A stretch of DNA of 64,000 nt from Neofusicoccum parvum. Lineage: Eukaryota > Ascomycota > Dothideomycetes > Botryosphaeriales > Botryosphaeriaceae. Made by a program: the position numbers and the translations under genes. This document shows positions 694 to 33,798 of the stretch, in pieces. The stretch spans positions 124,001 through 188,000 of the forward strand of contig CP087223.1 of the NCBI GenBank assembly GCA_020912385.1, given 5' to 3'. Every line of letters starts with the position of its first letter. Within the stretch, counting starts at the first letter, position 1. The notes beneath the pieces are model-generated. The model searched no databases. It saw nothing but the letters and a program-made list of their open reading frames with translations, and was not told where the DNA came from.

Positions 694-1239
694 TCAAATT
701 CCTTGCAGCTCGACCTTTTTGTGCAAGAGCGCCAGAGTAGCTAGCCGTTTGCGATCTCTCTCCCCGAGCTCCTGCTTGGCAGAGCTCGCGCCATTGGCTC
801 TGCGAATTACCAAAACACCGCCGTAGAAATACTCCATCTCCACCTCCGCGTCCCAGCGATAGAGCGGAGACCACTCCCTAAAGCAATAAGGCCGATCTTT
901 TTTAATGACAACATCGTATAAGCCGGTAAGGTCCGATATATGTGCTATTTTAAAAGTTCCATTAATGGAGACTACCACCGCGCAGTTTTAAGGAGACATT
1001 GAAAATCCAGACGGTTAGGGTATAAGCGGTATTAACAGCTTGGTCGCTCCGGATAAGGGATGAATTAAGAGCCGGACGTAGTCCGGATACACCTCCCGGA
1101 CCAGTTTCGCGTATACCTACCGGGTCCAACATCAGCTACGGTATTTAAAAACGCGAAGATGTCAACCTACAACGCTACCGGCAATCATCTCCTTCGTAAT
1201 GGCTTTGACCTTTGCTTTATATATCTTGCGATAACCGGA
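694..1239 (-). pseudogene. Isocyanide synthase, C-terminal part of a gene split by inversion
   Basis: On the minus strand the stretch encodes, with frame changes and stops, AKEMI-like helix residues (KAITKEMIAG), then [14 protein letters not shown], the family's signature Y-x2-Y-[IV]-R-L-x-I-H-P-S-x-G, then a stop-free 94-residue run 978-694 containing VVVSINGTF, KKDRPYCFREWSPLY and VEMEYFYGGVLVIR. This is the C-terminal half of a DIT1/PvcA isocyanide synthase; the N-terminal half is absent here. The segment starts exactly at the LTR at 1240. The missing front half is 16 kb away at 17177-17967 on the opposite strand, next to the partner LTR. Several stops look like C-to-T changes. Confidence 0.75.
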
Positions 1240-1447
1240 TGTCAACCACATTGGCCCGCAATCACGTGTCTCGTATTCCTCTTCTGATCACTACACCACC
1301 ATCACTCCACCCCGTACGCGTCAATTCTTAGTACCTAGCACAGCCTCTTTTGCTTACGCGTCCCCTTTGCGATCAGATATTTATGTAGCACTCGATAGCA
1401 TTAATCAAAGAAGACAGCGGTGTCATTCTTTCTCGCGCCGTTCAACA
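1240..1447 (+). mobile_element. Solo LTR 1 (208 bp), recombinant flanks
   Basis: Starts TGTCAACCACATTGG and ends GCGCCGTTCAACA, matching the LTRs at 16691, 18966 and 59532. It is a solo LTR: no internal retrotransposon region follows. Left flank 1235-1239 is CCGGA and right flank 1448-1452 is AGTAC, so it lacks its own target duplication. The near-identical inverted copy at 18966-19173 (2 differences in 208) carries the complementary pair of flanks, which marks an LTR-LTR recombination (see findings). Confidence 0.9.
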
Positions 1448-1959
1448 AGTACCGAGTGCTCTTTAGTGATCTATTGTCCAAAATATTTGGGCCTTGCATC
1501 TAATAATGGCTGGTCTCGCGGGTGACTACTTCTTGGTGATGCGTTCTGACATGTACCTTGCACCCTTGCTCTAGTAGACCTGGCAAGGCTGGCAAGATCT
1601 ACAGCCGGAGCCCTGGTATTATTAAAGGGAACGGATTCTGTCAAAATCACGTGTATTTAGCTTTCTTAGCGTAGTTTCAGCCTAGTAAGAGGATAAGAGA
1701 GGGTGCCTCCCTAACCCCCTCTCCTCTTCGCCAAGAATCTTATCACTTATTTAAGAACCATCAAATCTCAATAGATTCTTCCGAGTCTGCCTGGTACCCA
1801 CATCATCGCCGTAGCCTGCTAGCCTATCTTCATCCACTCCCGTCCTCCGCCTTCCTCGTGCTGTTATGTGGCCTTGGATTCGAAGGGCCAACGCGGTGCA
1901 CTAATTTATCCTTCCCAGCGCCGAGTTAATGCTAGACTTTAACGTTAAAAAGCCTGGAC
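1448..1959. other. AT-rich degraded DNA, no gene seen
   Basis: No ORF of note. This is the left end of the inverted segment. Stops in all frames and TA richness suggest RIP-type decay. Confidence 0.5.
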
Positions 1960-2106
1960 GAGTAGGATCTCCTTATAACCAGTCGCTTAAGAGACTACTA
2001 TTTCGTCTTTACTAATAAGTTCAAAATTCCAAAGCAACCTGAATTGATAGCCATGCGTACGCCGAGCTGCGGATTATTTGTCCATGTTACTGAGCGGCGC
2101 TGCGGC
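1960..2106 (-). pseudogene. Cytochrome P450 relic, C-terminal end
   Basis: Minus-strand translation gives fragments in several frames that resemble the end of a P450 just after the haem loop: SSAYAWLSIQ (compare N-L-A-Y-A-E-x-R-x-I) and LLWNFEL. The Cys loop itself is too decayed to read. The rest of the gene is at 6068-6690 on the same strand; a MITE with two nested LINEs (2107-6067) sits between the two parts. Confidence 0.5.
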
Positions 2107-2500
2107 AGGGCTCTGAATAGACAAGCGAATTTAGGCGGGCTTTAAAGCTCGCTTAGTAATTAGTAAACTAAGCGCTTGACTTGGCACGCCTGTTCTAAAA
2201 TCTACTTTATAAAATACCCGCTTAAGGTATAAGCGGGCACTAAGCGGTATAAATAAAGCCTTTCTCTTAAGTAATTCTAGCTGATAGGACGTATATAATA
2301 GTATATATTAAATCCTCTTAGCTAGAATAGTTGTATATATTACGTTAGAATTTTAGTATAAATCCGTAGCTAGAGGAGTATTTCCCTTCTATAGCTGTAA
2401 TTAGACCAAAACTTAAGTAGGGAATAAAGCAGATATAGAACGTATATTATATATGCTTGCCAAGCGGGCCTGAAAATAGTGCTTAATCAATCAATTACCT

Positions 2501-4015
2501 CGAGCAACCAAGACCTGCCTGGCCATAGGTAGACTGAGGCACCTCCGACCAAAACAGATGCGCCAGCTCTATCAAGCATGCGTGATTCCTCAACTAGACT
2601 ACGCCTCAACCGTCTGGCACTCCCCAAAGAGATGCAAATGGCAAGTGGCAGTGCTCTCCAGGATTCAGCGGCTGGCAACAACCAAGGCCATTTCAGCCTT
2701 CCAAACCGTTTCAACTGAAGCACTAGACTACGAGAACTTTCTCCTACCAACAAAGCTACGCCTACAGGCTAGGGCAGAGAGGGTCATCACTAACCTCAAA
2801 ACACTCCCCACCTCTCATCCATGCAAGACGCTTGTCAACAAAACAACATCAACAATCAATCTGGCAGTCAGCTTCCTGAGCCCACTGAATGCAACCCTCA
2901 AGTTACAAAGCCCAGGCCAGGCTGAGGAGACTGAAGTAATTGACACATGCCCCCTTCCACCATGGAAACCCCTGCTACTAGACAACATCCAACTGCAGCT
3001 ACCTAAATCTCAGACCCTAGAGGTTTTCAAGGAAGAGCTTGAACGAGACGGGGCCAAGAGGATCTTCACAGACGCATCTCAAGTAAAAGGACAACTTGGA
3101 GCAGCTGCGGTGATCCTCAACCAGGAGCAGAGAATCCATAGACAAGCCCAGAAAGGGGTTGGCTCCAGCAAGTTTTACAGCATCACGGCCGCTGAGCTTA
3201 TCGCTATTAACACCGGCATGGAGCTAGCAGTGGAGCAGAACCTCGAAGAAGGCAACTCAAATCCAGCAATATACACAATCTACAGCGACTCAAAGGCAGC
3301 CCTACAAGCACTAGCAGACCCACACAAGCGACGATCAGGTCAAGGCATAGTACGGTCAATTACAGAAACAGCCAAGCATATCAAGGATAGCCATCAAATC
3401 AGCTTCTCTCTCCAATGGGTGCCAAGCCACAGTGGGATCAGAGGGAATGATGAAGCGGACAGGCTCGCTAAAGCTGCAACCACACGCCTCAGAGAACACA
3501 GCTTTGGACCACTGGCATCACTTCAGGCCCAGGCAGCCAAGGAAACAGCACACGCAACCTGGACAGCACAATGGGAAATCTCAGACAAAGGCCAGCACCT
3601 CCGAGGCATCGACACAGCCCCACCAGGCCCTCACACCCGGCATCTATACGACAAGCTCCCACGGAGCCAGACAGGCCTTCTTGCCCAGCTGCGAACTGGA
3701 CACTGCTAGCTCAATCAGCACCGCACTCGAATGGGCCGCATCAACAATGAGCAGTGTGAATGTGGAGAAGTTGAATCAGTGTCACATGTCCTTCTTGACT
3801 GTTACCTGCTTCAGCAAGGCCGTCAGAAGATGCTTCAAGAAAGTGGCTTACAAAAGAACAGCCTATCAGCCTTGCTAGGTGGAAAGCCACCAAACAGCAC
3901 AGCAGCCACCCAAAGCAAAAACAAGTGGAGGATAACAGCATCGCAGCTACAGGCTGTACTCAGCTTTGCGCAAGACACACAGCGGTTTATAAACAGAGAT
4001 AAACCTATAGCGTAG
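2501..4015 (+). pseudogene. LINE A ORF2 C-terminus: RT thumb, RNase H, Cys-His tail
   Basis: The frame opens at the truncation point without a true start. First comes the end of the reverse transcriptase (LYQACVIPQLDYASTVW), then an RNase H domain with its acidic residues in order: IFTDAS, TAAELIAI, IYSDSKAAL and NDEADRLAK. A single in-frame TAG at 3707-3709 interrupts the frame. Translation then resumes in the same frame with the Tad/I-type C-terminal motif CECGEVESVSHVLLDC and ends at 4015. The RNase H looks intact, but the RT palm is missing, so it cannot move itself. Confidence 0.85.
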
Positions 4016-4190
4016 AACACTCTTTACACCACACACCTAACACCTCACTCTCCGCCTCCCTTTACCTTCTCCTTCTCTCAATTGACACACAACATGTATA
4101 CTAGCATTGAAATTCTTTGAATAGTCGTAGCCTGCATATCGCTCAGGGCGATGGGTCAGGGTAAATGAATTCAACTCAACTCAACTCAAC
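2501..4190 (+). mobile_element. LINE A, 5'-truncated non-LTR retrotransposon
   Basis: Flanked by a 14-bp target duplication TCAATCAATTACCT (2487-2500 and 4191-4204). The element begins inside ORF2 and ends in a 3' region with a (TCAAC)n-type tail, the usual result of incomplete target-primed reverse transcription. The same 3' region and tail end LINE B at 5985, so A and B are one family. It lies inside MITE 1. Confidence 0.9.
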
Positions 4191-4207
4191 TCAATCAATT
4201 ACCTATT

Positions 4208-5985
4208 AGACCACAATCGGCCACGAGTTTTGCACCCATAAGAAGTATACGCCCAGAAGGCCCGCGGGGTCAAGACCACCATCAAATAAAAGCGCACAGC
4301 GAGCTCTTTAATTTACTTAATCGACAAGCATTGCAGCGCCCGCGCTGGGCCACCGGTCAACGGGCTCTTTCCGCCTCACACCTGCCGTTCACCCGCTGAA
4401 ACTTTTCACTCCTGTGGCCAGAGCGCAGCCTTGGCGCTGTGTGTAACAATGGCACCAAGCCCAGCATCCCTATCACAGGAAGGTCGGCAACCCGAGACCC
4501 GGGCGCCTTCGACTAGCCAGAGGGTAACCAGGCAGCATTCCACCACAAGACCCCAAGCGGAAAGTGCCAATCAAGACACAATCCACGTCTAACCAGCACC
4601 GAAAGCACCTTCACCTAGAGTACGAGTGGCATTCAACGAAGCCCTCCGCAGCAAAATTTAGGACTACGAGAGCTAAATTAAGAGCTTACAAACATAAGAG
4701 GAGTTCTCACGCCAGGGATTCCTAAAATTAGAGGAGAAACTCGCACAACTAGCCGAGCAAAACTAAAAGTTGGAGGAAAGAGTCGTCCAGCTAAGCGAAT
4801 AGAACCAAGAGCTAGAAGAAAAAGTCGAGCAACTAATCGAAGGAAATGAGTTGGACAAGGCGATTGAACAATTACTCGTTGATGACGAGCACCTAGAAGA
4901 CCAAGCTCAGAAACCATAGGACAACGTTGAAGAATCAACCAGACAGGCCCAGACAGAGAACCTTACCAGACAAGTCCAACAGCTTACAGAAAGGCTAAAC
5001 ACGCTATCTTTAACTCCGCAAGTCAATAATCTAAGCTAGGCAGCAGTGGCAGCGCGCCCGACACCCAAGTTCCCGCCAACGTACAACACCCAGTCTGGAA
5101 ACAGCCCGACAACCCTAAGGATTACCACCGCGCTACCCTCTGGCCAGAACACCTTCTCGAGGTACATGCCAACCAAGACTGCAGCAGAGCACATCTCAGA
5201 GGCCCTCAAGAAGCACGATAGGACAAGAGACGCATCAGTTCTCGGTATAGGAACGATAAAGCTAGGATACCTCATCCGCTTTAAGGACGAGGAAGTAAAG
5301 AAACTTGCGACGAGCAATACCGAATGGACTAAGACGCTTGGAAACGACACAGCGATCACCCAACCCCAATTTGGCATTGTAGTCCATCGGACACCAACAT
5401 CGGAAGTCAACATCGAGAAGAAAAACGAGGCTATCCAAAAGATTCTCCGGGAGAACAGCCTCGTAGACGCACGAATTAAGAATATAGCCTAGATGAAGAA
5501 AAGAGACTCGCCGCTAGGACAGCATACCTCCCTAGGCATCTGGTTCAGCACGCAAGAAGCAGCCCAAAACGCCATCTAGAACGGACTTGTGTTCGGCCAG
5601 AGCTACACCAACCGTGTCGAGCCCTACCGAATAGAGAGGAAGAGATGCCACCGGTGCCTTCAGTTTAGTCATCTAGCATGGAATTGCAAAAAGACGGAAA
5701 GGTGTAGGCACTGCTTAGCGGAGCACAACAAGAGGGACTGCAGCTCAGACACCCCTCCGAAGTGCGCAGACTGCAATCAAGACCACCCGACAGGAGCAGC
5801 CTAATGCAAAGGAGCGATGCCTTATCCTCTTCTAAGGAGAGGATAACTGTGTGCTGCCTCCTAGTTTCCTTTGTTATCTCTTAGTGTACACTATCCAGTA
5901 GCACATTCCTTTGAATAGTCTGTAGCCTGCATATCGCTTAGGGCGATGGGTCGGGGTAAATGATATCAACTCAACTCAACTCAAC
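4208..5985 (+). mobile_element. LINE B, ORF1 joined to the 3' end (ORF2 deleted)
   Basis: Flanked by TCAATTACCTATT at 4195-4207 and 5986-5998. It has a 5' leader (4208-4448), ORF1 (4449-5804) and then directly the family 3' end (from about 5830) with a (TCAAC)n tail; ORF2 is missing. Its left target duplication overlaps the right one of LINE A, so the two inserted at the same short target inside MITE 1. Confidence 0.85.
4449..5804 (+). pseudogene. LINE B ORF1 (gag-like, coiled coil and zinc knuckles), decayed
   Basis: From ATG 4449 one frame can be followed to 5804 through several stops. The first third is charged; 4680-5030 encodes heptad-like runs (LEEKLAQLAE, LEEKVEQLIEG), a coiled coil. 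5046-5492 is an open ORF1 core. 5589-5804 encodes CCHC-type knuckles (CHRCLQFSHLAWNC, CRHCLAEHNKRDC, CADCNQDH), the RNA-binding end of LINE ORF1. Most interrupting stops are TAG where Gln (CAG) would fit, including those at 5490-5492 and about 5577, as RIP-type C-to-T mutation gives. Confidence 0.8.
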
Positions 5986-6067
5986 TCAATTACCTATTGA
6001 GGCCTCCGTTTGTCAAGCAGGTTTTGAGGTCCGCTTGGCTTGTCCATGCTTGCCAATTCAGAGCCCT

Positions 6068-6690
6068 ACGCGGCTGCGGTGGTTATGTTCCTCGTTACGA
6101 TAGAACTAAAACAGAGAATGATCTGCACGAGTGGATATAGTTACATCAGCTTTTCTGCCCTGCCTTCAGGGGGTGGATGGAACGTGGGTACAGCGTGTGT
6201 GGTTCTACTTACGCCAGTCGGTACGAAATTGTCAAAGATAACATCTCCTACAGCCGAAACTTGGCACGGCCGTGTCAGAGGCAGCAAGAGGACATATACG
6301 CATTACCTCGTCTACGATCGCACTCACGTATGTCATACTCTAAGCGCCGTTGATACTGATGTCCAGCTTGCTTGTGAATGTGGGGCGGATCTTGTCAACC
6401 ACCTTGGCCGTGATGTCGTCGGGACGCGTCGCCGAGAGGTACGTGATGCCAGATAGTTTGCCGTTGCGGCCATGTCGTATCCGGCCATCGTCAAGACGTG
6501 AGCGTTTGCTTTGATCTCTTTCAAGTGCAAAGCTTGGGAGGCCGTGTCACTACGATTTCGTGTTTGGGTTCTTATCAAATAATACTTGGGTGCCCCCACG
6601 CCCAGCCATTGCCTTGATGAAGCCGGACCAGTCAGACTCAGCCAACCGCTTTACAACCATCTGGCTCATCAATTCCACGTGTTGCTCATA
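6068..6690 (-). pseudogene. Cytochrome P450 relic, I-helix to K-helix region
   Basis: Minus-strand reading, with frame changes, gives ANAHVLTMAGYDMAATA (I-helix, A-G-x-[DE]-T-T region, with the Thr pair changed), then LSGITYLSATRPDDITAKVV and SKLDISING, then YRNEEH, all in P450 order. These fit a CYP of fungal secondary metabolism type. Breaks: at least one frameshift after the I-helix, stops, and MITE 1 inserted just after YRNEEH; the end of the gene is at 1960-2106. Non-functional. Confidence 0.65.
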
Positions 6691-7139
6691 CTTCTATCCG
6701 GGTTGAAGTCAACTTGATGCGGTATTTATGCCTCTACGGCAAGGTTCCTGTCCTACATCCTTGTGTACAAGTGTCTCGCGAAGGTCCTGCCTGGTTCATC
6801 CCAGCCCCCGCCCAGCATGCTCACGATAACCTTCGCAGAGACTCCTTGACGTAATTTTCTATTTGTGGCGATCATACAACACAACTCACCTGGCATAGCG
6901 GTCCAAGTTCATAAGTACCCAGTGCTTTTCGCCACCACCGACTTACCACCCGCCACCCACCGCCCTTCCTCACCATCGCCGTGCATCCAGCTACCTCCAG
7001 ACCCGCCTCCACACGCCCCCAGAAAGCGCTGTTACATCTCCCACGCTGCCGTCACCGAGCTCGCGCACATACTCGCCTTCAGACCCCGCCAGTCTAAGCG
7101 CCCACACCAAGCTATACCACCACGCCGTTGTGCAGCCCG
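6691..7139. other. No supported gene
   Basis: Mixed composition; the plus-strand ORF beginning at 6865 is proline/arginine-rich and looks like a shadow of the minus-strand gene to its right. Parts near 6700-6840 may be the N-terminal end of the P450 relic, too decayed to read. Confidence 0.4.
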
Positions 7140-7646
7140 TCATCGACACACAGCACGCGTGCGGGCGTCCCCTCGCGGGCGCCGGCGTCTTCCACGACAG
7201 CCTGATCCGCCGACGTCGCCCACGCCGATCTCCACCGTCGCCTCGTCCGCGACGCTCCGGCCTTCCTTTTCCTCCGTCGAGCTGGATGCGCCGGGGAGCG
7301 ATGCGACAAGCGGGTTGGGGCTGGTCTTGCCTGGTCCCAGGGGTGGTGCGTGGCTCCTTTTCGCCTCCAACGTGCTCCTCGTGGCAGCGAGGGGCGATAT
7401 ATGGACGCCGCTGACATGGCCGGGATCAATTAGGGCATAGACACAGCTGTGGATCGAATCCACTTGGAAGGGGACTCGTATACGGAAGACGGCCGTGTTC
7501 TTAGACGTGTCGATACCAAGGAACAGAGTCACCGGAGGGTCTGGACGTAAGAAGACAACGGAGGCATCATCGACATCACGCCAGCTTGGTACCACTGGCG
7601 CCTCCTCGATGAGATGTGGGCCGTTAGACCTCGGGCCAGCATCCAT
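7140..7646 (-). CDS. Hypothetical protein of a duplicated-leader family (copy A)
   Basis: A 168-residue ORF from ATG 7646. The first ~95 residues look like a real folded part (PPVTLFLGIDTSKN, then VFRIRVPFQVDSIHSCVYALIDP); the end turns Arg/Gly-rich and may be out of frame or past an unseen intron. No family recognised. The ~570 bp upstream closely match the DNA upstream of the gene starting at 40338, so the two are paralogues sharing a leader. The start was chosen because homology between the loci runs up to this ATG. Confidence 0.45.
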   Translation of the reverse strand: MDAGPRSNGPHLIEEAPVVPSWRDVDDASVVFLRPDPPVTLFLGIDTSKNTAVFRIRVPFQVDSIHSCVYALIDPGHVSGVHISPLAATRSTLEAKRSHAPPLGPGKTSPNPLVASLPGASSSTEEKEGRSVADEATVEIGVGDVGGSGCRGRRRRPRGDARTRAVCR

Positions 7647-8215
7647 TGCCTATCTAATCTAAGCATCTCAGTCAGTGGTTGCAAACATTCAAGCGGTGCC
7701 AAAGCAGGGGGAGAAAAATAAGGAATGCGATCCCCGTCTCGCATTTCAACGCGAGACGTTTCCCACCCGCCCAGGCTTTTCGATGTTGAGGTCTGGAGCA
7801 GCCTTGGCTCTGGCGCTAACGCCATCACTGGGCTGCAAGAGGGATGCGACGATAGAAGAAACGGCAGTCACCCATCCGGCAACACGGTCCCAACAGTCCG
7901 GTAGTGTTGCAGCGCCCTTGGCTCTCCAATTTGCGGGACTGCTCTTTGTCTCTGGGCGCGATCGGCAGGGTCTGCCCGCAGCCACGATGCGTGTTCCAGC
8001 AAGGCGGTGCGGATGGACGGTCTGAAGGCGCCGAGATAGAAGATACGGCAATCCGTCTGCCCGGAGTGGGTGCCCCTACAGACCCCTGGTGCTACCCAGG
8101 TGCACGAAGCATGGCCTGCTCTTTGTCTCTGAGGCGCCCGGCTTGCAGGCCCAGTGAGCCACTACCTACCCCTCCACCCAACCGGGCTTTGGAGTAGCCC
8201 TGACTCTGGGTGTTG
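7647..8215 (-). promoter_or_regulatory. Duplicated leader/promoter block, copy A
   Basis: Reading leftward, this block matches 40339-40880 over most of its length. Shared segments include AAGCCCGGT, CAGGCCATGCTTCG, TTGCCGTATCTTCTATC, CTGTTGGGACCG and AAGCCTGGGCGGGTG. It also has an internal repeat: an AAGGCTGCTC...AAGCC.GG.CGGGTG block occurs at both ends. Likely a promoter plus long 5' leader of the family; a spliced leader is possible. Several short ORFs cross it but none is conserved. Confidence 0.6.
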
Positions 8216-8865
8216 CAATGTAGTTTTGCAGGATCGTGCGTGACGTATGCAGAGCCTCAATGCGGTCGGCGATGAGGGCATACGGCGGCGTGAGGGCCGG
8301 CCTATCAGCAGTAGTCAGAACAGACTCCGAAGAGCAGGCTCGACGCACCCGTCTCACGCGCCTGTCGAGCGGCGGCAACCCCGGCAGGCCACTGGCGTCC
8401 GAGGCGGACACGGAGGCTGGAGGCCGGCTTGCATACCACTGTCCATCTCCACTCAACAGACCGCCGCGCGGTTTGGCGCCGATACATTGTGGAGGAGTTG
8501 GTAGTAGCTTCGCGCTCGCGAGGCACGCGACATTCACTGGTTGACGCGAGGCATGCGATATACACTGGTTGAGGTGGCGCAGCAGCCGCACGGACGCTAC
8601 AATGGAAACATGGACACGACGGGCATGGAAGGGCTCGGAACGAGAGAGCAAGTACGCGGGTGTAGGGTAGATGGAGCAGAGTGGAGTGGAGGATGGGAGC
8701 GAGATGGCGTCAGGCGCTGCGAAACGCGGAGGTGGCGAAGAGATGGATGGACCTGCGGAGCCTTGGCCAGCCAAGGTAATGACAGCTTTCAATCCTGAAT
8801 AGCAGAGCCAGCTCGTTAAGACCGCCGGTATAACAAGATAACTGCACACCAAAGCTGTCAATATC
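8216..8865. other. Gene-free, GC-rich spacer
   Basis: Overlapping ORFs on both strands, none with recognisable domain or sustained coding character. Separates the inverted leader copies A and C. Confidence 0.4.
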
Positions 8866-9020
8866 GGAGCCAGGGCTGCTCAAGAAGCCCGGTCGGGTAG
8901 AGGGGTGGGTGGTAGATTACTGGGCTTGCAAGCCAGTAGCGGCAGAGAAAAAGAGCAGGCCATGCTTCGTGCTCCTGGGGAATACTGGGGGCACAATCCT
9001 TCCATCGCCAGATGGATACG
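8866..9020 (+). repeat. Partial third leader copy (copy C), inverted
   Basis: In plus orientation, this repeats the outer ~145 bp of leader copy A: AAGCCCGGTCGGGT, TGGGCTTGCAAGCC and AGAGCAGGCCATGCTTCG occur in the same order. Similarity fades after about 9010. With copy A it forms an inverted repeat around 8216-8865. Confidence 0.6.
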
Positions 9021-9655
9021 GATGCAGAGTCCGCTAGAGCCTGCGCTGGGAAGATGCCCACGCACCCTTTCCGATACAGCGTCCTCAATGACCAGAGTCA
9101 TAGCGAGGCCTGAAGTAGGGAGAGCCAGGCACGTGCATCTTTTCTTCCCCATCCTCATGCCAGGTGACCACGACCCGCTCCTGAACCACGCATGTAAGGT
9201 CCCGCGGCCAACCACATGTTTCGATTTGTGCATCGACCGTTGTCAAGGACGGCATCGCGAAGGAAACGAGAGACGGATATGGTGATGCGTAAGCCTCAGG
9301 ACCCCGAAAAGTGCAACAAGAAATGCGCCACATAAAAGCGATGGCCCAGCACAAAGCAGTTAAACCCACCCACCTAGCTTTGCAAAGCACCCGAGCTTGA
9401 GAGCAGCCTCGACTCTGTGCTCCCGGTCGAAAATGTAGATGGTGTGAATGGAATCGAGCTTCCCTCTTTGCTGCCGGGGATCGCCACGGTAACTGAGCCG
9501 AGAGTCAACACTGCGGCGAGGCTGACAGGGCGCATCTAGGACACCGAGGCCGAGAAGCAAAAAGGCCAGCGCAGTAGCTGTTACTTCCAAAGCCAGAGGC
9601 GCCACCGTAGAAACGCCACGGCTGTCAACACGTCGCCGGGCTGACTGGGCTCAGG
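9021..9655. other. No supported gene
   Basis: Minus-strand ORFs at 9085-9390 and 9360-9605 exist; the second starts with a hydrophobic run (ALEVTATALAFLLLGLGVL) that could be a signal segment. I see no family match and do not call a gene. Confidence 0.35.
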
Positions 9656-11035
9656 CTAGGACAAAGCGGCAGCAGGAGAAGAGGTGCGGTCGAAGCAGGC
9701 CATACAGCCGACGCCGGTAAGCCGAGGGAGGCGAAGATGGGACGAAGGCACGTGGGTGGGTGGTGATGGAGAGGAGGGCACGTCAAGACCAACCAGGCCG
9801 TAGGCGCGTCGAGTTACTCTTGTCTTGAAATCGCCTGCACCCCAGGCGAAGATGGCTGCCAAGTCTTGGATCAACCGCGTGGAGTCGTTGCGGTCCGAGA
9901 CGCGGTAGAGGCCGAGCGGAGTGATCGAGATTTGTTGCGACTGGGGGTCTTCCGAGGTGTAGCAATGCTGCCAGAGGGAGGCGTAGATGCCTTCGGTGGT
10001 CAGCGAGTACGTCCGGAGACCGGAGTCCTCACCGTCGGCCGCGGCTCCATTTTCGAGGGAGCGTAGGATGGACAGCGCACACGAGCCTCCAACGGCAACC
10101 CGATTCTCGGCCTCAATCATAGCCCGCCCGGAGGACCTTAGCTCGGCCACGAAGAAGGGGAAGCGCATGCCGCTCGGTGCGGTCGTGCACGGGTCTGACA
10201 GGAGGTATGTGAATCCCGAGTCGGGCGGAGCTTCCTGCAGTTCCTTCAGAATGCTGTCGAGGGGACCGAGCCGGGCTGCATCCAGACCAACTGCAATATC
10301 TGGACGCGGTGTTCGGGGCTGGAGCGATGACGGGGCTTGCTCTAGGACCGGATCGGCAGGAGGGGCCATGTTTTCGGCCTGGGGGCGCTTCTGAGGAGCG
10401 GCCGGGTACCGATGAGTGTAGAGAATCGGTTTCAGCGCGGCTTGCCAGTCTGCACGCGTGTTAAGAATCCGCAGCCGGGACGGGCAAGACAACGCACCTC
10501 TTGCTTTCTGGCACTTCAGCTCGCCAAACCGGCCAACCAGCTCCTTGAGCGCGGCGTACCAGATATCGGTCCATTCCGGCTCCATGGTGGTGGCGCGATC
10601 GAGCGCGGCTGCAGCCGCCGCGCAGAGCTCGTCAGCCACAGCAACTGCTCCTTCATCGTCACGGTCCAGTGGGAGGTCCAGCGCGCCCTGGGCGGCGGCG
10701 AAGCAGATGCCGATTTTGTGTACGACTTGTGCTCGGTAGTTCATCGGCGATAGGCAGGATGCCGCGCTGGAGGCCCCCGAGGATGTGGAGGACACCATGG
10801 TCGCGGTATCGGTATTTACATCGGCGGTGACAGCAGCGGCGGCGGCGGCAGCTTCGGGAGGAGGGCTTGCAGGGACGGTGCGGATCCAATCGAGCACACG
10901 GTCGGTGAGGAGCGGCGCGAGCGGCTGGGCGACGGGCGGCTGGGCGACCGAGGACAGAGACGCAGACGTATCGGCGCGGATACGTTTGACGGGTGTGGCA
11001 GGGCAGTCCTCGGAAGCCGCGCGCGCGCGCTTCAT
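9656..11035 (-). CDS. Fungal PD-(D/E)XK nuclease-like protein (DUF7924-type)
   Basis: 459 residues in one open exon from ATG 11035; the ORF continues 39 codons upstream, but KRARAASED with its basic KRIRAD tract is the likelier start. Residues 1-95: basic, low complexity (poly-Ala), possible nuclear signal. 100-210: helical part. 243-250: TPRPDIAV, the PD motif. 292-300: FPFFVAELR, the E-x-K strand with Arg for Lys; then EAENRVAVGG, the family's following helix. C-terminal helices include IFAWG. In this fold Asp246 and Glu298 would bind metal; the K-to-R change makes catalysis doubtful. Divergent to the kinase at 11263, 227 bp apart. Paralogues at 54658, 56069 and 57385 are decayed. Such domains occur in crinkler-type effectors and transposon-derived proteins. 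Confidence 0.7.
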   Translation of the reverse strand: MKRARAASEDCPATPVKRIRADTSASLSSVAQPPVAQPLAPLLTDRVLDWIRTVPASPPPEAAAAAAAVTADVNTDTATMVSSTSSGASSAASCLSPMNYRAQVVHKIGICFAAAQGALDLPLDRDDEGAVAVADELCAAAAAALDRATTMEPEWTDIWYAALKELVGRFGELKCQKARGALSCPSRLRILNTRADWQAALKPILYTHRYPAAPQKRPQAENMAPPADPVLEQAPSSLQPRTPRPDIAVGLDAARLGPLDSILKELQEAPPDSGFTYLLSDPCTTAPSGMRFPFFVAELRSSGRAMIEAENRVAVGGSCALSILRSLENGAAADGEDSGLRTYSLTTEGIYASLWQHCYTSEDPQSQQISITPLGLYRVSDRNDSTRLIQDLAAIFAWGAGDFKTRVTRRAYGLVGLDVPSSPSPPTHVPSSHLRLPRLTGVGCMACFDRTSSPAAALS

Positions 11036-11262
11036 GCCGTGATGCACAAAGAGTAAAGAGAATGTGAGGGGAGTGGAAGCACGGCGGCCGCAGCGGAGGT
11101 GTTGGGTCGAGGTCGAGTCGGGCGGTCGGGCGTGGTCAAAGCGCCGACGCACGTGACAGCGCGACCCTGGTCTTAAACCAGAACCGTCCTACTGTCCGCC
11201 GCACAACAACCACCTCGTACCATCTCTATCTAACCCTTTCCTCACTAACCTCGACACCCACC
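11036..11262. promoter_or_regulatory. Bidirectional promoter, PD-(D/E)XK gene / kinase
   Basis: The 227-bp gap between two divergent ATGs is the only space for both promoters. A pyrimidine-rich stretch (TCTATCTAACCC, CTCACTAACC) precedes the kinase ATG, as is usual near fungal transcription starts. No clear operator. Confidence 0.5.
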
Positions 11263-12475
11263 ATGCGGCCCCTCCTCCGCCCAATTCTCACAGAGACCAA
11301 GACATCGTCAATATCCAGGGCCATGTCTCTGTCTCGTGGGCAGGTCCTTCCAGGCGCTCGGTGGGATTATTCCGTCATCGAGCCTCTTAAAGGAGACGGC
11401 ACGCATACCTCTACCGCCTTCAAAGCAAGGATCGTACCGAAGCGTCACGGCTTTGACGTACCTCAATGGTCTGCTCCTTGCATCAAGCATATTGGAATTC
11501 GAATGCTGATTCTGGCACTCAGGGCGGTCATCAAATACGCTCCATCAGACAAGCAAGTGGCCAGGGAGAACCTGAAGCGGGAATGGGAGACGTACTCCCA
11601 TCCCAGCATCACTTCCAGCGCATGCTTCCGGAAGCTTTACGACCTGATCGGCGATCCCACAGCTTTCGAGAATGACACGAGTGCATCACCCTGTCTGGCT
11701 CTTGAGTGGCTGGACAGCACCTTCGCGGACGCCCTGCCCGAGCTGAACAGGCGTACTTATATACTCATCACAGCTATCGTTGAATCGATCATGACCAGTT
11801 GCATCAGCTTTGGCGAAGTCGGACTTGTCAACACAGGTAGTTCATTTGCCCTCAACGACTGACCTGTACTAACAACATAGACACAAAACCTGCCAACATT
11901 CTGCTCTCGGGTATGGGCACTGACAATCCTGTTGTCAAGATAGCAGATCTCGGTCTTAGTAAGCAGACACAACTTGGCTTTGTACGGCCTGTGCTGACCT
12001 TTTCTCAGCATTCACCGATGGCTCGAGGTGTAAGGTCCAGCCTTACGCCATGCGCGCTCCCGAAGTTTTCCGAGGTCTGCCATTCATTGACCGGTCTCAG
12101 GTCTGGGCATGTGCTGCAATGCTGCTTTGCTGGCTAAAGCCAGGCATCTTAGGTGCCGCCGACATGGATGCTGACTTCCTCAAGAATACTTGGTGCATCG
12201 CAAAGCTCAGGCGGCTTTTTCCTGACTGGACCGATCCGCCGGTCGAAGATAATGTCCACTCGCTCGAATTTGAGCTCAGCGAAAGGTTTGCTGAAGAACC
12301 GGGGCTGATACGCATCTCATCTCTAGAGGATGAGATGCGAGGGATGCACCTACTACCTGTGCTGAAAGATTTGCTTAGTTTCATGTTGGTTGTCAACCCG
12401 GATAAAAGACCGTCTGCTGCACAAGTTCTGGCATCACAGCAGTTCCGATCATTGAAGGAATCTCTCGTGGTATGA
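11263..12475 (+). CDS. Protein kinase, four exons
   Basis: Exons 11263-11468, 11523-11836, 11881-11958, 12009-12475; 354 residues. Intron 1 (54 nt) has no stop and keeps frame, but splicing restores the VAIK-type strand WAVIKYA (Lys73). The glycine loop is LKGDGTHTS. The catalytic loop is VNTDTKPANIL: Asp174, Lys176 and Asn179 kept, with His of HRD replaced by Asn. DFG is DLG (196-198) and APE is MRAPE (216-218). The C-lobe ends with NPDKRPSA. Catalysis is plausible. It is a fungal family poorly related to known signalling kinases; no substrate can be named. Divergent to the PD-(D/E)XK gene. Branch sites such as TACTAAC and CTGAC support the introns. Confidence 0.8.
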
Positions 12476-12790
12476 AGTAGGAGACTGAGTCACTGGTTTG
12501 TACATAGAAAATTAATAACACTCTACTCTTTGCCAACTGAAGCTTTTCACCAAGCTTGCTACCAAGAAATCATATAGGCAGGTCTCGTATATGGCTTCGA
12601 GACAGTAGGATGTCTGGTCTCTTCTAGCGTTACTCTACTTGTCCCCCTCGGCCGCCAGCACCTACACGAGTACATCCGAGTAGTCCTTTACCCTCTACAG
12701 CTGCCCCATCTCCTGATCGATACCCAGCACCACTTAAAAGTGAACGAGCCCGCTATTAAACGGCTACTTGGCATATTAATTAGGTAATAA
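12476..12790. other. Spacer between convergent genes
   Basis: AT-rich 3' flank of the kinase and of the HET gene. Nothing else seen. Confidence 0.5.
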
Positions 12791-15192
12791 CTATATGATG
12801 GTAACTACAGCCGGAGTTGAAAATACTACCGTCTCTTTTGTGGATCTATATGTCCCCATTCGTCGAAACTCATCTTGCGACTGGCCAGTTGGTGTTATAA
12901 TAAGTCCCATACTTCCAGGAATGCTATGAAAATGGAGACAATATAGATTGGGCGGATTGATGTGGTCCGTCAAGATCCAACCAGCCTCTTTCGCTCTACG
13001 AGGTTGTTCATAATCAAACTTAGCATCAAGTGTGTTCCCCAGCTCATCGACTATCGCTCTAGTCTCTTCACAATCAGTGATAGTAGCTACTTTGTTCATG
13101 TATCCCCGTACTCCTATTACGCCTTGTATCTTCATCCCAAGCTCTGTAGGAACGCTTGTTATGGAAGTGTCAAGAATTGATACACAATGTGCATTGCAGG
13201 AATGCTTTTCCTCAAAGCAGTCGGCGTCTATGTAGGAGATACTGTAGGGTACCGACGCCCATGACCATGAAGGCACCATGCCGAATGGATCGCCGTTGCT
13301 TTTGCCATACGCTTGAATTTCCCATAGAAGGTCCCAGGACAGATGATTTGCCCACAGTCCAGCAACGTCCCGGTCTTGGGCCGCGCGTAAGCGGAGAAAG
13401 GAAGTGCGTAAACCAGCTAGCGCCACCAGCCTGTCCTCCGGCTTGGTAAGCTGCCTCTGACAATAGTCCTCGAGAAGGCGATGCCAATTAAAAAATGTGG
13501 GCGATGTCGGAAGCTTTTGCGCGACCTCCTCGTAGTAAGGCTCTATGGAGGCATTATCAAATTGCCGCCCATGTGCACACTCCCAAAGCATCCCGCCTAG
13601 CCCGAATGTGATGTACCGTGTGGACAGTAATTGTTCCTGAAACGTCCACGCACGAGTATGCAGTCTCGAGAAATAGCGTTCGCGTGCATCACAGTCTGGC
13701 CCGACGAACACTGGGCTATGAGATGGTGACGGTGACCATGTTGATGGAAGGAGGGCAAGTAGTTCGTGGCTAAATCCCGCAGCGTGCTGGATCCCTTGAT
13801 AAGCGTCCTCTGAAGTTCCCGCACCGATGGTGAGAATAGCGTTTTCGTACACACTGGCCATCTGTGATGATTGTTCTTTCCAGTCGTTGCGAGCCTTAGC
13901 ACAGTTTCCCTGGAGGATACATAGCGCATCGACCCAGAGGAAGCGGATGCCAAGCGAGCGGGTGATGTTGATAGCGTCACGGATTGTTTGCGGAAGACAT
14001 GTGTTGAACTGTGGGTGGACTTCAGGTCCTGAACTGTGTGAGGTCAGAAGAAAGAACTGAATTTCTGCCTGTCCTTCTCAGTGAAGGAAAAATGAGTGTC
14101 CTTAAATACATAAATCTGAGCTGACATAACCGAGGAAATGAGTGTATCCGAGGAAGTGATATCCGAGGGTATTGGGCATGAACAGTGGCAAATTGATGCC
14201 CTCCTCTTCTCCGGTAGAATCTTCGAGAGATTGTAGTAACTAAAACTAAACAACAAGTGCTGCCTGAGAAATAAGGGGATTCTGGTTGACAACATGCCAT
14301 GTCGATTCCCTCCACCATGCTGTGTTGGCTCTCTGGTGTTAGGGTCGTAAAGGTGCGAGTACCCCAGCAGTAGCTCAAGGCAGCATATCTTCCCTTGGGA
14401 CCCCGGTAATCTTTCTCCTCTTCTGTCCAGATTGGGTTCATCCAGAGACATACTGAGTCGTCCTCATCGTCCGGATGGCCCAAGTCGATAAGTCTTTTCG
14501 GAAGCTGAGATTCAGTTGCTTTTGGACACTCCTGATGGGTTGTGAAGCACTCCGATATCCAGTGTAATGCCAGACCTACGGCTTCAGTCCTGGTAAGGCA
14601 TGGAACGAAGAACTCTGTCAAACCGGTAGAGGGTGACCCTGTTTGAAGTTACCATCGCAAATAAGGGCTACCGGACAATCGATCTCTTACCATACGGTGT
14701 GTATATAGTCAACCATGGTGGGTCTCTATCCTCAGGCCCTGGAAATGGCGGATCCAGTATGAGGGCTATCGCAGCACTTTCCGACCCGAAGAGTGCAATA
14801 TTTTGGTTTCCGGTACTCAGGATCGTTGAGAATGTCGTCTCTGCCTCATCTCTGCTCATTCTTTTGGTCCCCCGGTTGACATGCTGGACCTGATGAAGAT
14901 ATTCCTTCTTGAGGGCGCTTCTGATGAGATTGCATAAACGACAGGGATTCATAGAGGAAGCCGATCGTTGCAAGACTTCACCGCTATGAGCAAAGCCACA
15001 TGGGCTCTCCAAAGCATCCAGCGTAATGCTCTTGCACAAATCACACAGAAAACTTGCACCTTTCAGTGAAGGTTGCGTAAGCTGCGAGGTGTGACCAGCA
15101 TCACCGCATGGCCATGGCAAAAGTGGAGGGCTTGGATGTCTGATCTTGTCGGAATCAAATATTCGGCTCGGCTGGAACAAGTTCTTGGACAT
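12791..15192 (-). pseudogene. HET-domain (heterokaryon incompatibility) protein, broken by a solo LTR
   Basis: Exon 1 15192-14691; intron 14690-14639 (GTAAGA...AACAG); exon 2 from 14638 to 12791, interrupted by the LTR at 14002-14291. Without the LTR and one copy of its 5-bp duplication the frame is unbroken: 684 codons. Exon 1 has the family's N-terminal Cys motifs (CDLCKSI, CRLCNLI). The HET domain shows RYAALSYCWG, then after the LTR LPQTIRDAINITRSLGIRFLW. RAWTFQEQLLS and PSWSWASV follow, as in full-length HET proteins. These proteins trigger cell death when incompatible hyphae fuse. As it stands translation stops inside the LTR, so only the front of the HET domain would be made. Confidence 0.85.
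14002..14291 (-). mobile_element. Solo LTR 5 (290 bp) inside the HET gene
   Basis: In minus orientation it starts TGTCAACCAGAATCC and ends CCCACAGTTCAACA. Both ends match the other LTRs here (TGTCAACC...GTTCAACA), but the interior differs, so it is a related family. A perfect 5-bp target duplication ACATG flanks it (13997-14001 and 14292-14296). Removing it restores the HET frame exactly. A TATTTAAG motif inside is TATA-like. Confidence 0.88.
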
Positions 15193-16690
15193 GATGTCGG
15201 AATAGCAAGGAAAGAAGCATATGGAGCGGCAGGTAATAACCCAAAAGTCGGCCAGGGCTCATGGGACTTGTGGGCTGAATTTTCAAGATGGGAATGGGAG
15301 AAGAAAAAGACGCATGAACAACTTTTCGCCGCGATGATGCCGAGGTATTAGAAGGCGACGGTGGTGAAGTGGGAGCGAAAGGGTTTTTCATCACCTCGAA
15401 TACCTAAGCTGCGCCGCAGCGGGGCACTAATCGATTGACTGCTGCCTGCGCTGCGCCCCACGCTGAATCATCGCTCGGACCTCCCGAATTCCGACATCAC
15501 ACCTGCAGTGAGTGCTGCCTCGCCGCTCACATACCTAATTGACCTCACGATCAAACCAGATGTCCACCCGATTGTAAAATTAAGCACACTCACGAGCCGC
15601 CCTGAAGCTCACGTCATTTGTGGAACACAGTCTCCACCACACATGCCTTTGCACTTCAACCTTCTTTCCTCACTGAAAAGCTACGGAATCAAACCTGACT
15701 CCCTATTCAAGCAAAATAAGTAACAAGGTGTTACGTAGGGCTGCAATGCTTACTACCACGGTTGCCGTGCGAGATGCGTGGTCAAAAATGAGCTTCGTAG
15801 TAGCAAATTCAGCATTGCTTACCAGATCGACATCGAGGCCGTATTGTGTGCGGTCAAGACTGTTTGCTTCCGTGCCACTCGCCCACAGACAGGTACCTTT
15901 ATGTCAGACAATATGAAGCTTATTGGTACGGACTAGTAATTGTGCCGCGTCACGCTTTTGCAGCTCGATACTTTAATTCTCCGATGCGGACACCTTCAGC
16001 GACGAGCTCGCCGCCTACCGCGCCGTCTCCGAAGCCAAGCAGCAGCCGGCCTGGACGACTATCTACGGCAAGGTGATACGCCCCGCAGTACGCGATAACA
16101 CTGCAACCTAAATACTGGACCGCACTCGTGATGAAGAACCAAGGTTCAAGGGGGGCGGCGGCTCAATGACGTGCGTGGTATGTGCGCGGGTTCCTGCAGC
16201 ATCGACCAGGATTCCGCATAACTTCGAACGTCTGAACATGATTTCGTCTATGGTTCCACAACATCAAGTCACGTGCGAGAGGGAGGACCGCGTAGTCACG
16301 CACGAACGCGTCTCGTTTCCCTGCAGCTGCGTCGACATCAGCAGTCCAGGAAATTACTTCGCCCGGCGGCAGCAATACCACCCCCGCCGCATGCCAAATC
16401 CTGGATGCCGCGTTGGGTGTGACACTGGCTTTTGCGTGAACCCTTTTATACAGGACGCGGCCGCCGGCGAAGCTGTTTCACGGCTGCTCGTCCCTCAAGA
16501 CCGCCGGTGACATGTCGGCTTATCTCCAGCCCAAATGCGTTGGTCTCTGCCTTGTTCGAGAGTGGGCTCACGTTTTTTTTGGCCTTTCGGGATTTTGCGC
16601 CTGTTTATCTTCTGTTATTTATAATTGACGGCTGGTCGGCGTCCTGGAAGCAAGAATTGTCCCCTGCTGAAGGTATTCGCCGTGCATAAT
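15193..16690. other. No intact gene; short coding-like relics
   Basis: Upstream DNA of the HET gene, then mixed relics. About 15975-16100 (+) has a 45-residue coherent run (DELAAYRAVSEAKQQPAWTT) and 16163-16381 (-) another 70 codons without stop, both without recognised family. Likely remains of genes lost to transposon activity. Confidence 0.4.
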
Positions 16691-16906
16691 TGTCAACCAC
16701 ATTGGCCCGCAATCACGTGTTTTACCTCCTTGTTCCACATGCGTTTTACTACTTGCCTTGTTACTACACCATACACCTACCCCTGCACAAGTCATTCACC
16801 CTAGTTATGCGTATTTCCGTAAATCCGATCATTACACCTATATAGCAAGATTCTGTAGCAACAATAAGAAAACCAGCGGTGTCTTACTTTCTCGCGCCGT
16901 TCGACA
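16691..16906 (+). mobile_element. Solo LTR 2 (216 bp), perfect 5-bp duplication
   Basis: Begins TGTCAACCACATTGGCCCGC and ends CGCGCCGTTCGACA; same family as LTRs 1, 3 and 4, but more diverged. ATAAT flanks it on both sides (16686-16690 and 16907-16911), showing that this family makes a 5-bp target duplication. It lies in the upstream region of the split isocyanide synthase relic. Confidence 0.92.
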
Positions 16907-17176
16907 ATAATTCCTTGTTCCACCGTGGTGTCACTACGTTGGACCGATATATGTACATCTCCGTCTCTGCCTTTCGGATTCTGTGGTCCAGCGTGTACTT
17001 GACGGCTTACTCGCGCGTCTAGAAGACGTCGCAGGCAGGTGAGCGTCTGGTTGATCTGGTCAAGATGAACTCGTAGGCAGAACTGTTTTTTCCCAATGGC
17101 GTGCCGGACCCAAAGACCTCGAGCCGACAGCGGCTACACGCTGTCTCTGTCAGATACAACTCTCTAGATCCTTAGC
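16907..17176. other. Upstream part of the isocyanide synthase relic
   Basis: Decayed sequence that should hold the promoter and N-terminus of the relic at 17177; no frame is readable with confidence. Confidence 0.4.
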
Positions 17177-17967
17177 GTGGTCGAAAGCTATAGCATGCAC
17201 GAGAAGAGCAAAGCCATACCTGGCCAGTCTGGCTGGCTTGGGCGAGCAAAGTTCGGACTCATTATCGAGAAACACGTAAAGGAGGGCCAGTTAACCCTAA
17301 TAGTGCTGCCATCATCCCCGTGGAAAGGTATTAACAGAGTTGACAAGGTCCTCGGCACCGAGCCTTATCTTGGGGAGGAGCTGGCGCTTGCAAGAATCAA
17401 TGACCTCTACTAGAGCATTCAGCGGGTGTACGCTCCAGGAGCCATGGTCGTTATCGCGACTAACAGTCTATGTTACAACAATAAGCTATGCGTAACAAAC
17501 TTTGCCTGTATACTAGCATGCGCAGACATCTTGGGCATATCCGACGAAGACGCCTGGAATTATGGCTCTGCCGTTTGAACTCTGGTAGCGGAACGTGGAT
17601 ATAGCTATATTAGGTTCATGCGCTTGATGAATCTACTAGGCTTCTACACCGACTCAAAGATAACTAATTAGAAATACCTAAGTCTCTGCCTGGTTGCTCG
17701 CGAAGCTTGCGTCTTCCTATGGAGACCTAAACTTCGATACCGCCGCCTTTTTAAGGACGGACGAGGATTACATGCTGTTGAAAATTGGCGCGGTGCAGAA
17801 TGTAGTACGATTCTTGGCATGCCGTGTGAGGGGGGGCAGGAGAGGTGCCCGACTTATCCTCAAACACGGTACTATACCTAATCTAGCAACTAACGTACAC
17901 GTGATTTCCAACACATGCGTACCTACTTAGGGTACTCCAAGTTTCTTACAATGGATCTTATATATAG
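17177..17967 (+). pseudogene. Isocyanide synthase, N-terminal/central part of the split gene
   Basis: Plus-strand fragments follow the DIT1/PvcA order: GLIIEKHVKEG, LIVLPSSPW, INRVDKVLGTEP, GEELALARINDLY, a [19 protein letters not shown], then [36 protein letters not shown] and GYSKFLTMDL. It ends at a LINE C insertion (17968) beside LTR 3. Stops at CAG-like positions suggest RIP. The remaining C-terminal part is at 694-1239 on the other strand, beside LTR 1. Dead. Confidence 0.8.
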
Positions 17968-18945
17968 ATAGATAAATTCATTTTCTTCCCGATATAGCTC
18001 CCTTTCGGGTCCATGCGGGGTAGGCTATCTGCGATATTTTACATGAGAGGGAAAACCTGGTCTCCCAGGTGAAAAACCCCTCCTTTCTTCTTGGGTTGGT
18101 TGCCCCTTCATATTCCGTTTTTCCTGCTTACCGGTAGAAGCTACTATAGCAGCCTTATATTAGCTAGGTGTTAACCTTAGCTCTCTCTTTCTCCCATGTC
18201 CTGGTGCTGGTCCTCCTGGTCAAGATCCTGGTTCTCCTGGTAGTTCTCCTGGTGGACCTCCTTGGCCTCCTGGTCCATCTCTCTTGCCAGACTAAATTGG
18301 TTTAGCAGCCCTAGGTGTAGAAACCACTTTGTTGCTGCTTGGACCCCTTTCTTTGTTGACAGAAGGGTGTGGTAGTCTGTGGTTTCTGCTAGTTGTAGCA
18401 TCTGTGCTCTGCCTTCTTGGAAGTGTGGGCAGAACAGGAGGATGTGCTTTGGTGTTTGTCTGTGCCAGCCACATGGGCAGGCTGGGCTGGGGTGGCCTGG
18501 TACCTTGCGCCTGGAGAGAAAGTCTTCAAGGCCAATGTGTTCAGTGCGCAGCAGGGTGAGGAGAGTGCTTTGTGGTTTGGTGAGTTCACTGTGGAGCTGC
18601 CTGATTTTTGGATTCCAGGATGCGCCCTGGGCCACTGGCTTGTTTCTCCTCTCCTGTCTAGTTTGCTTTGTCCACCTCTCCTTCCATAGCTCTCTGATTG
18701 CCGTACGAAGCCTGGTTTGCTCTGGGAATTTTTGACTTGCAGGGGGGCAGCTGCTGAGGAGGGAGTCCAGTTTTCTCCCTAGTAGTGTTCTCCTAGATGG
18801 GCCAGAAGCTCCCTTGGCATTCAGTGTGGCCCTAGCAATCATCTTGATGTCCCTGCATGTGTTCTCAACTATTGTGGCTACCGGTCCCTTTTTGCTTCTG
18901 ATTGTATGTGCCAGTGTAAGCTCATCCAAGTGGAGTGAGAGGGGG
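17968..18945 (-). mobile_element. LINE C, 5'-truncated, 15-bp target duplication
   Basis: GGATCTTATATATAG occurs at 17953-17967 and 18946-18960, a perfect 15-bp duplication. In minus orientation the element carries only the end of ORF2 and a 3' region, without the (TCAAC)n tail of LINEs A and B, so it is a different family. It inserted into the isocyanide synthase gene, five bases from the site used by the LTR element. Confidence 0.9.
18177..18929 (-). pseudogene. LINE C ORF2 C-terminal fragment
   Basis: 250 open codons on the minus strand. The part LLTLLRTEHIGLEDFL, then CPCGWHRQTPKHILLFCP, is the C-terminal Cys-His motif that follows RNase H in Tad-type LINEs. RT and RNase H are missing by 5' truncation. 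The tail is Gln/Glu/Asp-rich low complexity. No active element. Confidence 0.8.
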
Positions 18946-18965
18946 GGATCTTATATATAGTCCGG

Positions 18966-19173
18966 CGTTGAACGGCGCGAGAAAGAATGACACCGCTGTC
19001 CTCTTTGATTAATGCTATCGAGTGCTACATAAATATCTGATCGCAAAGGGGACGCGTAAGCAAAAGAGGCTGTGCTAGGTACTAAGAATTGACGCGTACG
19101 GGGTGGAGTGATGGTGGTGTAGTGATCAGAAGAGGAATACGAGACACGTGATTGCGGGCCAATGTGGTTGACA
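18966..19173 (-). mobile_element. Solo LTR 3 (208 bp), recombinant flanks, inverted partner of LTR 1
   Basis: The reverse complement matches LTR 1 at 206 of 208 positions; the two differences are transitions, one at the last base. Left flank 18961-18965 is TCCGG, the reverse complement of LTR 1's left flank CCGGA. Right flank 19174-19178 is GTACT, the reverse complement of LTR 1's right flank AGTAC. Confidence 0.9.
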
Positions 19174-19824
19174 GTACTATTACTCCAGCCTAGTCTATCG
19201 AAATGTCTTATACACTCCGCCGAAGAGGCCTTGTATTTGGACCTGGTTTAATTTTTAATGCACACTATAGGCCGCGAAGCACAGGCCTGCAGCATTTGTA
19301 AAGGTTCTTTTCTCGAGATAAGTGCTTATACGAAAGGGCAGGACACGTAGGGTTTTCACGTTACCAATCGTTACTCGTCGCGGTCTCCAGCCTCAATCAA
19401 CCCATAAAGAGATGGAACGGTAAATTCTTTCGACCGACGCCTGGATAGACGAGGAAATTTCCCGCAAGGCCTATATGTACGTAGACTGTGAATCTGAGAG
19501 CCTCGAACTTGTAGTGTTAAAGAGGGGAGACTAAGTGATGATGCGCGTTAAGAGTTTGAGTTCCGCAAAGTAGGTTGTTTGGCCGCCGCTTTCTCCACGT
19601 ATCAGGAGATTAAGAACAATAAGTCTAGAGGTAGCCGTGTCATTCACCCTACCGTCCTCTGCACGACTTGCATCACCCGGATCTCTAGAGAGCATGCTAA
19701 AAATATATAGATTGGATTGGATTGGTCTATTCAGATTATATCGTATTGGTTAGACACAACTAAGAAAAAAATTGCTTACGACCAAATTTAATTGACAAAG
19801 GTGAAGTAAATTTAGGAGTACTTC
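19174..19824. other. Degraded DNA between LTR 3 and the SDR gene
   Basis: AT-rich towards 19700-19820 with GATTGGATTGGATTGG short tandem repeats at about 19712. A short run around 19441-19550 (+) looks coding-like but is unassigned. No gene called. Confidence 0.45.
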
Positions 19825-33446: not shown

Positions 33447-33798
33447 CACAGCCGTAAGAAATTCATGAGACGTCAATGAGGAAGGGCAGGAGAAACTGTG
33501 TGCTAATGCCGGGGGAGTAACAACCATCCAACAGGCATCCACAACGTCGATTCCCAAGGCCCAACACTGCCGAAAGAAATTCATAAGACATCAATAAGAG
33601 ATGGGCAGGAGAAGCCGTGTGCTCACGCCGGGGGAGCACCAACCATCGAACAGGCATCCCCAACGTCGATTGAAAAGGAAAAAAACTGCCGTAAGAAAAT
33701 CCATAAGACGTCAATAAAGGACGGACAGGAGAAACTGGGTGCTCATGCAGGGGGAGTAAAAACCAACCAACAGGCATCCACAACCTTGATTCCCTTGT
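33447..33798. repeat. Three tandem ~119-bp units
   Basis: Units begin at 33447, 33565 and 33684. Each contains GCCG.AAGAAA, CATAAGACGTCAATA, GGGCAGGAGAA, GCCGGGGGAGTA and CAACAGGCATCCACAACGTCGATT with small changes. Minus-strand ORFs change frame between units, so it is not coding. Immediately downstream of the gene at 33866-34550. Confidence 0.85.

Follow-up and report, generated by a model that had tools for sequence, protein, structure and literature searches.

The closest published case that we found to the locus described here is the inversion 2z3 of Drosophila buzzatii, which is ascribed to ectopic recombination between copies of Galileo (PMC2775673). In 2z3, copies of the element face in opposite directions at both breakpoints, and exchanged target-site duplications (TSDs) are the mark of ectopic recombination. 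Both features are also found in Neofusicoccum parvum, in a 64,000-nucleotide stretch of contig C18 (CP087223.1; C18:124001-188000, hereafter the window, whose numbering is used unless a contig or locus is named) from a 44-Mb genome in 18 contigs. Here, a 17.5-kb segment that is probably inverted lies between two long terminal repeats (LTRs), LTR1 (+) and LTR3 (-), which belong to one element and face each other from the two breakpoints. However, Galileo belongs to the DNA transposons and has duplications of 7 bp, while the copies here are 208-bp LTRs with 5-bp duplications. Further, uninverted chromosomes were examined for 2z3 and its copies are chimeric, while here a paralogous gene serves to tell the old order.

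Chromosome rearrangements mediated by Ty1 are known from yeast (PMC3102749, PMC9879454). They have in common with our case the recombination between dispersed LTR retrotransposon sequences, but they are assayed or induced events, while the present one would be a natural inversion read from its footprint. Solo LTRs and a 71-kb inversion between Yarrowia assemblies are described in PMC5014426, and Podospora solo LTRs arising by LTR-LTR recombination in PMC10787394; the parts of these two papers covered here do not mention exchanged duplications. In the literature searched (not by organism name), exchanged TSDs are named in two papers, both of them on Drosophila inversions.

Mismatched duplications at the LTRs of endogenous retroviruses are a sign of ectopic recombination. 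The diagnostic logic is the same at our locus; here, one chromosome retains, within 18 kb, the two reciprocal products of what was likely an ectopic crossover, and the paralogous gene fixes the old order. Thus, a single genome is enough to argue for both the mechanism and its direction. The event is of a well-known, textbook type, and the locus is a newly documented instance that is unusually legible from one genome.

Exchanged flanks of two opposite LTRs

The features at the breakpoints, followed by three LTRs that serve as family controls, are:

1235-1239, +: left pentamer of LTR1, CCGGA, with its partner copy at 18961-18965
1240-1447, +: LTR1, 208 bp, TG...CA ends, of a Ty1/copia-type family as judged from related complete elements
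1448-1452, +: right pentamer of LTR1, AGTAC, with its partner copy at 19174-19178
1448-18965: segment probably inverted, 17.5 kb, based on exchanged pentamers and paralogue continuity
18961-18965, -: pentamer adjoining LTR3 on the segment side, TCCGG on the plus strand (= CCGGA)
18966-19173, -: LTR3, 208 bp, with terminal CG where LTR1 has CA
19174-19178, -: pentamer adjoining LTR3 on the outer side, GTACT on the plus strand (= AGTAC)
14002-14291, -: LTR5, flanks CATGT/CATGT (ACATG on the plus strand) intact; control inside the segment
16691-16906, +: LTR2, of a related subfamily, flanks ATAAT/ATAAT intact; control inside the segment
59532-59757, +: LTR4, flanks TAATT/TAATT intact; control

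LTR1 and LTR3 agree at 206 of 208 positions and differ at LTR positions 173 (A/G) and 208 (A/G). Read in the orientation of the LTR, the flanks are CCGGA/AGTAC at LTR1 and AGTAC/CCGGA at LTR3, i.e., an exact exchange in all 10 of 10 bases. The initial annotation had reported this exchange, the two differences and a family rule of matched 5-bp duplications; its flank coordinates and letters are correct to the base, and the differences as well as the duplications of LTR2, LTR4 and LTR5 are reproduced. The marks of solo LTRs are present, namely TG...CA ends (with the exception of CG in LTR3), a 5-bp duplication as the family rule and no adjoining internal sequence.

Three related LTR families from the window (the LTR1 type and two others) were searched genome-wide, and the copies were fetched and their flanks read. 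Scoring covered the best 40 in each of the three sets of first-look candidates (94, 148 and 90), and the resulting table is not exhaustive. It holds 64 of the 76 copies considered. The twelve set aside are ten LTRs that by their inner flank belong to apparently complete or part-complete elements (L021, L022, L033, L087, L088, L099, L100, L105, L107 and L112), one copy with an ambiguous end (L108) and one fragment (L028). Partial matches in L034, L035, L036, L038, L043 and L044 are left out; the LTR2 or LTR4 copies in L037, L039-L042, L045 and L046 are included.

Identical 5-bp flanks are found in 53 of the 64 tabulated copies and unmatched flanks in 11. Among the latter, the flanks of C8:2480019 and C3:3349679 have a one-base difference, and a longer element may start with the LTR at C3:3387568. 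A single pair out of the 55 possible between unmatched copies shows reciprocal exchange, LTR1 and LTR3, and no second exchanged pair occurs among the 64 copies. By chance, 0.002 exchanged pairs are expected from the observed sharing of TSDs (9 of 1378 independent pairs), and 0.0001 from base composition. Of the 33 tabulated same-contig inverted pairs within a family, LTR1 and LTR3 also have the shortest distance between them (17.7 kb, measured between their starts); both flank pairs are intact in 20 of these, and 12 include another unmatched copy and show no exchange. One-sided pentamer matches at L087/L088, L099/L100, L105/L112 and L021/L022 are the two ends of complete elements, and L097/L126 and L098/L100 have only one pentamer in common. 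The flank exchange of LTR1 and LTR3 is real and specific.

Six LTRs in the table have clearly unmatched flanks and no reciprocal partner there: L026 (C3:3420260), L097 (C9:54519), L102 (C1:4340046), L109 (C16:69217), L126 (C1:4273737) and L128 (C7:109517). They are candidates for other rearrangements. The same screen, from unmatched LTR flanks to crosswise pairs to the continuity of a gene or paralogue, could serve to count the inversions made by LTRs in any telomere-to-telomere assembly.

A split pseudogene and its relative on C5

The left breakpoint splits a decayed gene of the DIT1_PvcA family. The two parts, a neighbouring pseudogene and the tail of a long interspersed element (LINE) are located as follows:

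20-247, -: start of a second DIT1_PvcA-family pseudogene, which continues upstream of the window (C18:123344-124247)
694-1239, -: 3' part of the decayed DIT1_PvcA-family gene, cut at LTR1, identified by a PF05141 match and the C5 alignment
17096-17967, +: 5' part of that gene, about 16 kb from the 3' part, with a 138-bp repeat inside
17953-17967, +: LINE target duplication, copy 1, GGATCTTATATATAG, of which the last few bases may belong to the LINE tail
17968-18945, -: tail of a 5'-truncated non-LTR retrotransposon (LINE), with 99.0-99.6% identity to every one of the seven copies fetched
18946-18960, +: LINE target duplication, copy 2, directly abutting TCCGG of LTR3

In a profile scan of the whole genome, positions 1-130 of PF05141 match C18:141264-141695 (window 17264-17695, +) with three stops inside, and positions 183-265 match C18:124928-125227 (window 928-1227, -) with five stops inside. 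On C5, pieces covering positions 1-71 and then 70-270 follow in order on one strand, at a locus with two tandem sets of DIT1_PvcA (PF05141) exons. An open frame of 296 amino acids (aa) on C5 covers positions 70-270, across the point where the window gene is split. When the six open pieces of the split gene are scanned separately, three match PF05141 at E <=2.1e-5 (two of them just under the curated cut-off), two are without any match and the longest 3' piece matches only an unrelated family (E 0.24). A seventh open piece, from the neighbouring pseudogene, has no profile match.

The four breakpoint flanks were searched separately in the genome: A (left of LTR1), B (right of LTR1), C (the flank of LTR3 inside the segment) and D (the flank of LTR3 on the outer side, 19174 onward). 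Flank A has one diverged relative in the genome, on C5. Flank C begins with 19 bp, followed by the LINE, which has many near-identical genomic copies; past the LINE, it matches C5 too, adjoining the match of A. At the relative locus used for the continuity test (L074, C5:119500-129400), positions 4095-4764 align to window 17113-17775 (+, 68.5% identity), 4759-4804 to 17913-17958 (+, 78%) and 4839-5269 to 1230-794 (-, 67.7%). The breakpoint falls in the 34 bp of L074 between 4804 and 4839, and a translated comparison carries the A-side match leftward beyond the window start, to L074 6783. Un-inverting 1448-18965 restores the gene order and orientation of C5 at the left breakpoint. As the gene is unbroken on C5 but in two parts on C18, the uninverted order is, by this alignment, the old one, i.e., ancestral at the CCGGA junction.

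For an empty-site test, 60 bases of C were joined to 60 bases of A, with the LINE duplication and the LTR pentamer each kept once, and the product was compared with the C5 gene. It scores 115.5, against 52 for C and 76 for A by themselves; the joint score is the sum of the two less one 16-base gap, placed just past the junction. The control joins C+B and C+D score 52 and 53. Shuffling A 300 times gives a mean of 53.9 and a maximum of 65, a weak control, as it also ruins the match of A itself (76). Since C and A match adjacent parts of one gene collinearly, they would have been neighbours before the insertions. This paralogue result is independent of the pentamer identity and, as far as the sequences tell, in accord with the pentamers. 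The broken gene is a decayed pseudogene, and no intact gene is shown to be disrupted by the inversion.

The LINE target duplication was considered as direct evidence of the linkage between A and C, and rejected; neither copy extends into TCCGG, both being confined to the C side, and they are thus uninformative on A. The duplication ends exactly at the start of the LTR pentamer TCCGG, so that two retroelements lie side by side in one pseudogene (17953-18965). The 138-bp dispersed repeat inside the 5' part (17776-17913) has 28 other genomic matches, several of them 98-100% identical. With TG...CA ends, and located between CATGC copies at 17771-17775 and 17914-17918, it resembles a very short LTR-like insertion. 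The second DIT1_PvcA-family pseudogene follows the split one as on C5, which indicates a two-gene block common to C18 and C5.

A proposed crossover between the LTRs and its alternatives

We suggest, with a probability of roughly 0.87, that 1448-18965 was inverted by a crossover between two opposite insertions of one Ty1/copia-type LTR family. In the old order, the left end would have been the 3' part of the gene, CCGGA-LTR-CCGGA, the 5' part of the gene and the intervening DNA; at the right end, an LTR facing the other way would have stood between two copies of AGTAC, followed by the sequence from 19174 onward. Pairing of the two inverted, near-identical copies, 17.5 kb apart, could then have taken place within a chromatid or between sister chromatids, and resolution with a crossover would have flipped the segment. 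Each LTR would thereby keep one of its own target-site pentamers and gain one of the other's. Two copies each of CCGGA and AGTAC are found, in a crosswise arrangement, which is the footprint predicted by a crossover.

Several observations weigh against this proposal. The C5 relative is about 68% identical, and the 5-bp site is not preserved in it base by base. The B-D junction (1448 with 19174) has no paralogue: 1 kb of flank D matches only itself in the genome, and 1 kb of flank B only repeats away from the breakpoint. The reading frames across the B-D join (31, 43 and 48 aa) are unremarkable and no long frame spans it; the evidence for this junction is a single item, the AGTAC pentamer. Moreover, 208 bp is a short recombination substrate, and two LTR differences are too few to read chimerism, G at position 173 being a common family variant. 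The evidence comes from one genome, and the uninverted allele and the empty sites are what we infer from it.

The recombining copies may have been longer elements that later collapsed to solo LTRs. The initial annotation had proposed recombination between two solo LTRs; the inversion by recombination is upheld by the specific flank exchange and the continuous relative on C5, while the solo state of the recombining copies is not shown, as complete 5.5-kb elements exist. An LTR2-type element of about 5.5 kb at C7:2461393-2466877 is complete and matches RVT_2 (118.3 bits, cut-off 31.6), with gag_pre-integrs under its cut-off (26.9 bits, cut-off 28.4). Another complete element, at C5:315629-326612 (L076, L077), has LTR1-type LTRs, the duplication GTATG and a nested LINE, and matches the interior of the C7 element in three pieces at 86-91% identity. 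A crossover between one or two complete elements of 5 to 6 kb, each later made solo by its own LTR-LTR recombination, would be a compatible sub-case of our proposal with an identical end state. Longer homology recombines more readily, which favours complete elements. However, this route needs extra deletion events, the 53 tabulated copies with intact flanks look like solo LTRs, and nothing in the window matches the C7 element's interior. We hold it to be possible, though not probable.

The same footprint, and equally the agreement with C5, would result from a flip by the assembler; the true chromosome would then carry CCGGA-LTR-CCGGA and AGTAC-LTR-AGTAC, with the 17.5 kb between them reversed. 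The identity of the repeats at 206 of 208 positions speaks for such a flip. It is nevertheless unlikely. Telomere repeats (TTAGGG) are found at six of the six contig ends examined (C1, C5 and C18) and the window is without N. This points to an assembly from long reads, which would span 208 bp with ease. In addition, the 20 intact pairs among the 33 tabulated inverted ones were assembled with their duplications, including 216-bp LTR2 copies on C18 that are 100% identical. Crosswise pentamers would also result from an aberrant integration, in which two cDNA molecules are joined crosswise to two target sites so that insertion and inversion happen in one event; an analogous hybrid-element model for a DNA transposon is treated in PMC2775673. 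This would need two coordinated half-integrations and the later loss of both internal regions, and we consider it very unlikely. Finally, LTR1 and LTR3 could be two unrelated solo LTRs whose duplications were lost by mutation, and nine other tabulated copies of the 64 do have unmatched flanks. With at most 0.002 exchanged pairs expected by chance, and with the C5 paralogue test, which is independent of the pentamers, speaking strongly against it, the probability of such a coincidence is close to negligible.

If the crossover between the LTRs is accepted, it can be speculated that a segment between inverted LTRs of this identity could still flip back and forth, so that both orientations exist in the species. 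We regard this as quite doubtful. If true, the segment would be a retrotransposon-made, recurrently inverting one that carries a predicted tRNA-Leu gene and HET-domain sequence.

Other features of the window

LTR5 overlaps the ends of two open reading frames, 12791-14077 (-) and 14022-14648 (-). The larger of them (12791-14077) matches the HET domain from profile position 28. From this match and the overlap, a HET-domain gene looks interrupted by the LTR5 insertion. HET-domain sequence, together with the TTAGGG telomeres, points to a filamentous ascomycete. A Rfam scan of the window gives nothing at the gathering threshold, and base composition across 1-24000 gives no usable signal at the breakpoints. 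The predicted tRNA-Leu (TAA) is located within the segment at 11120-11213 (-), where a reading frame overlaps it with its end. Tandem direct repeats are found at 33479-33794 (period about 120 bp) and at 36653-37054 (period about 135 bp).

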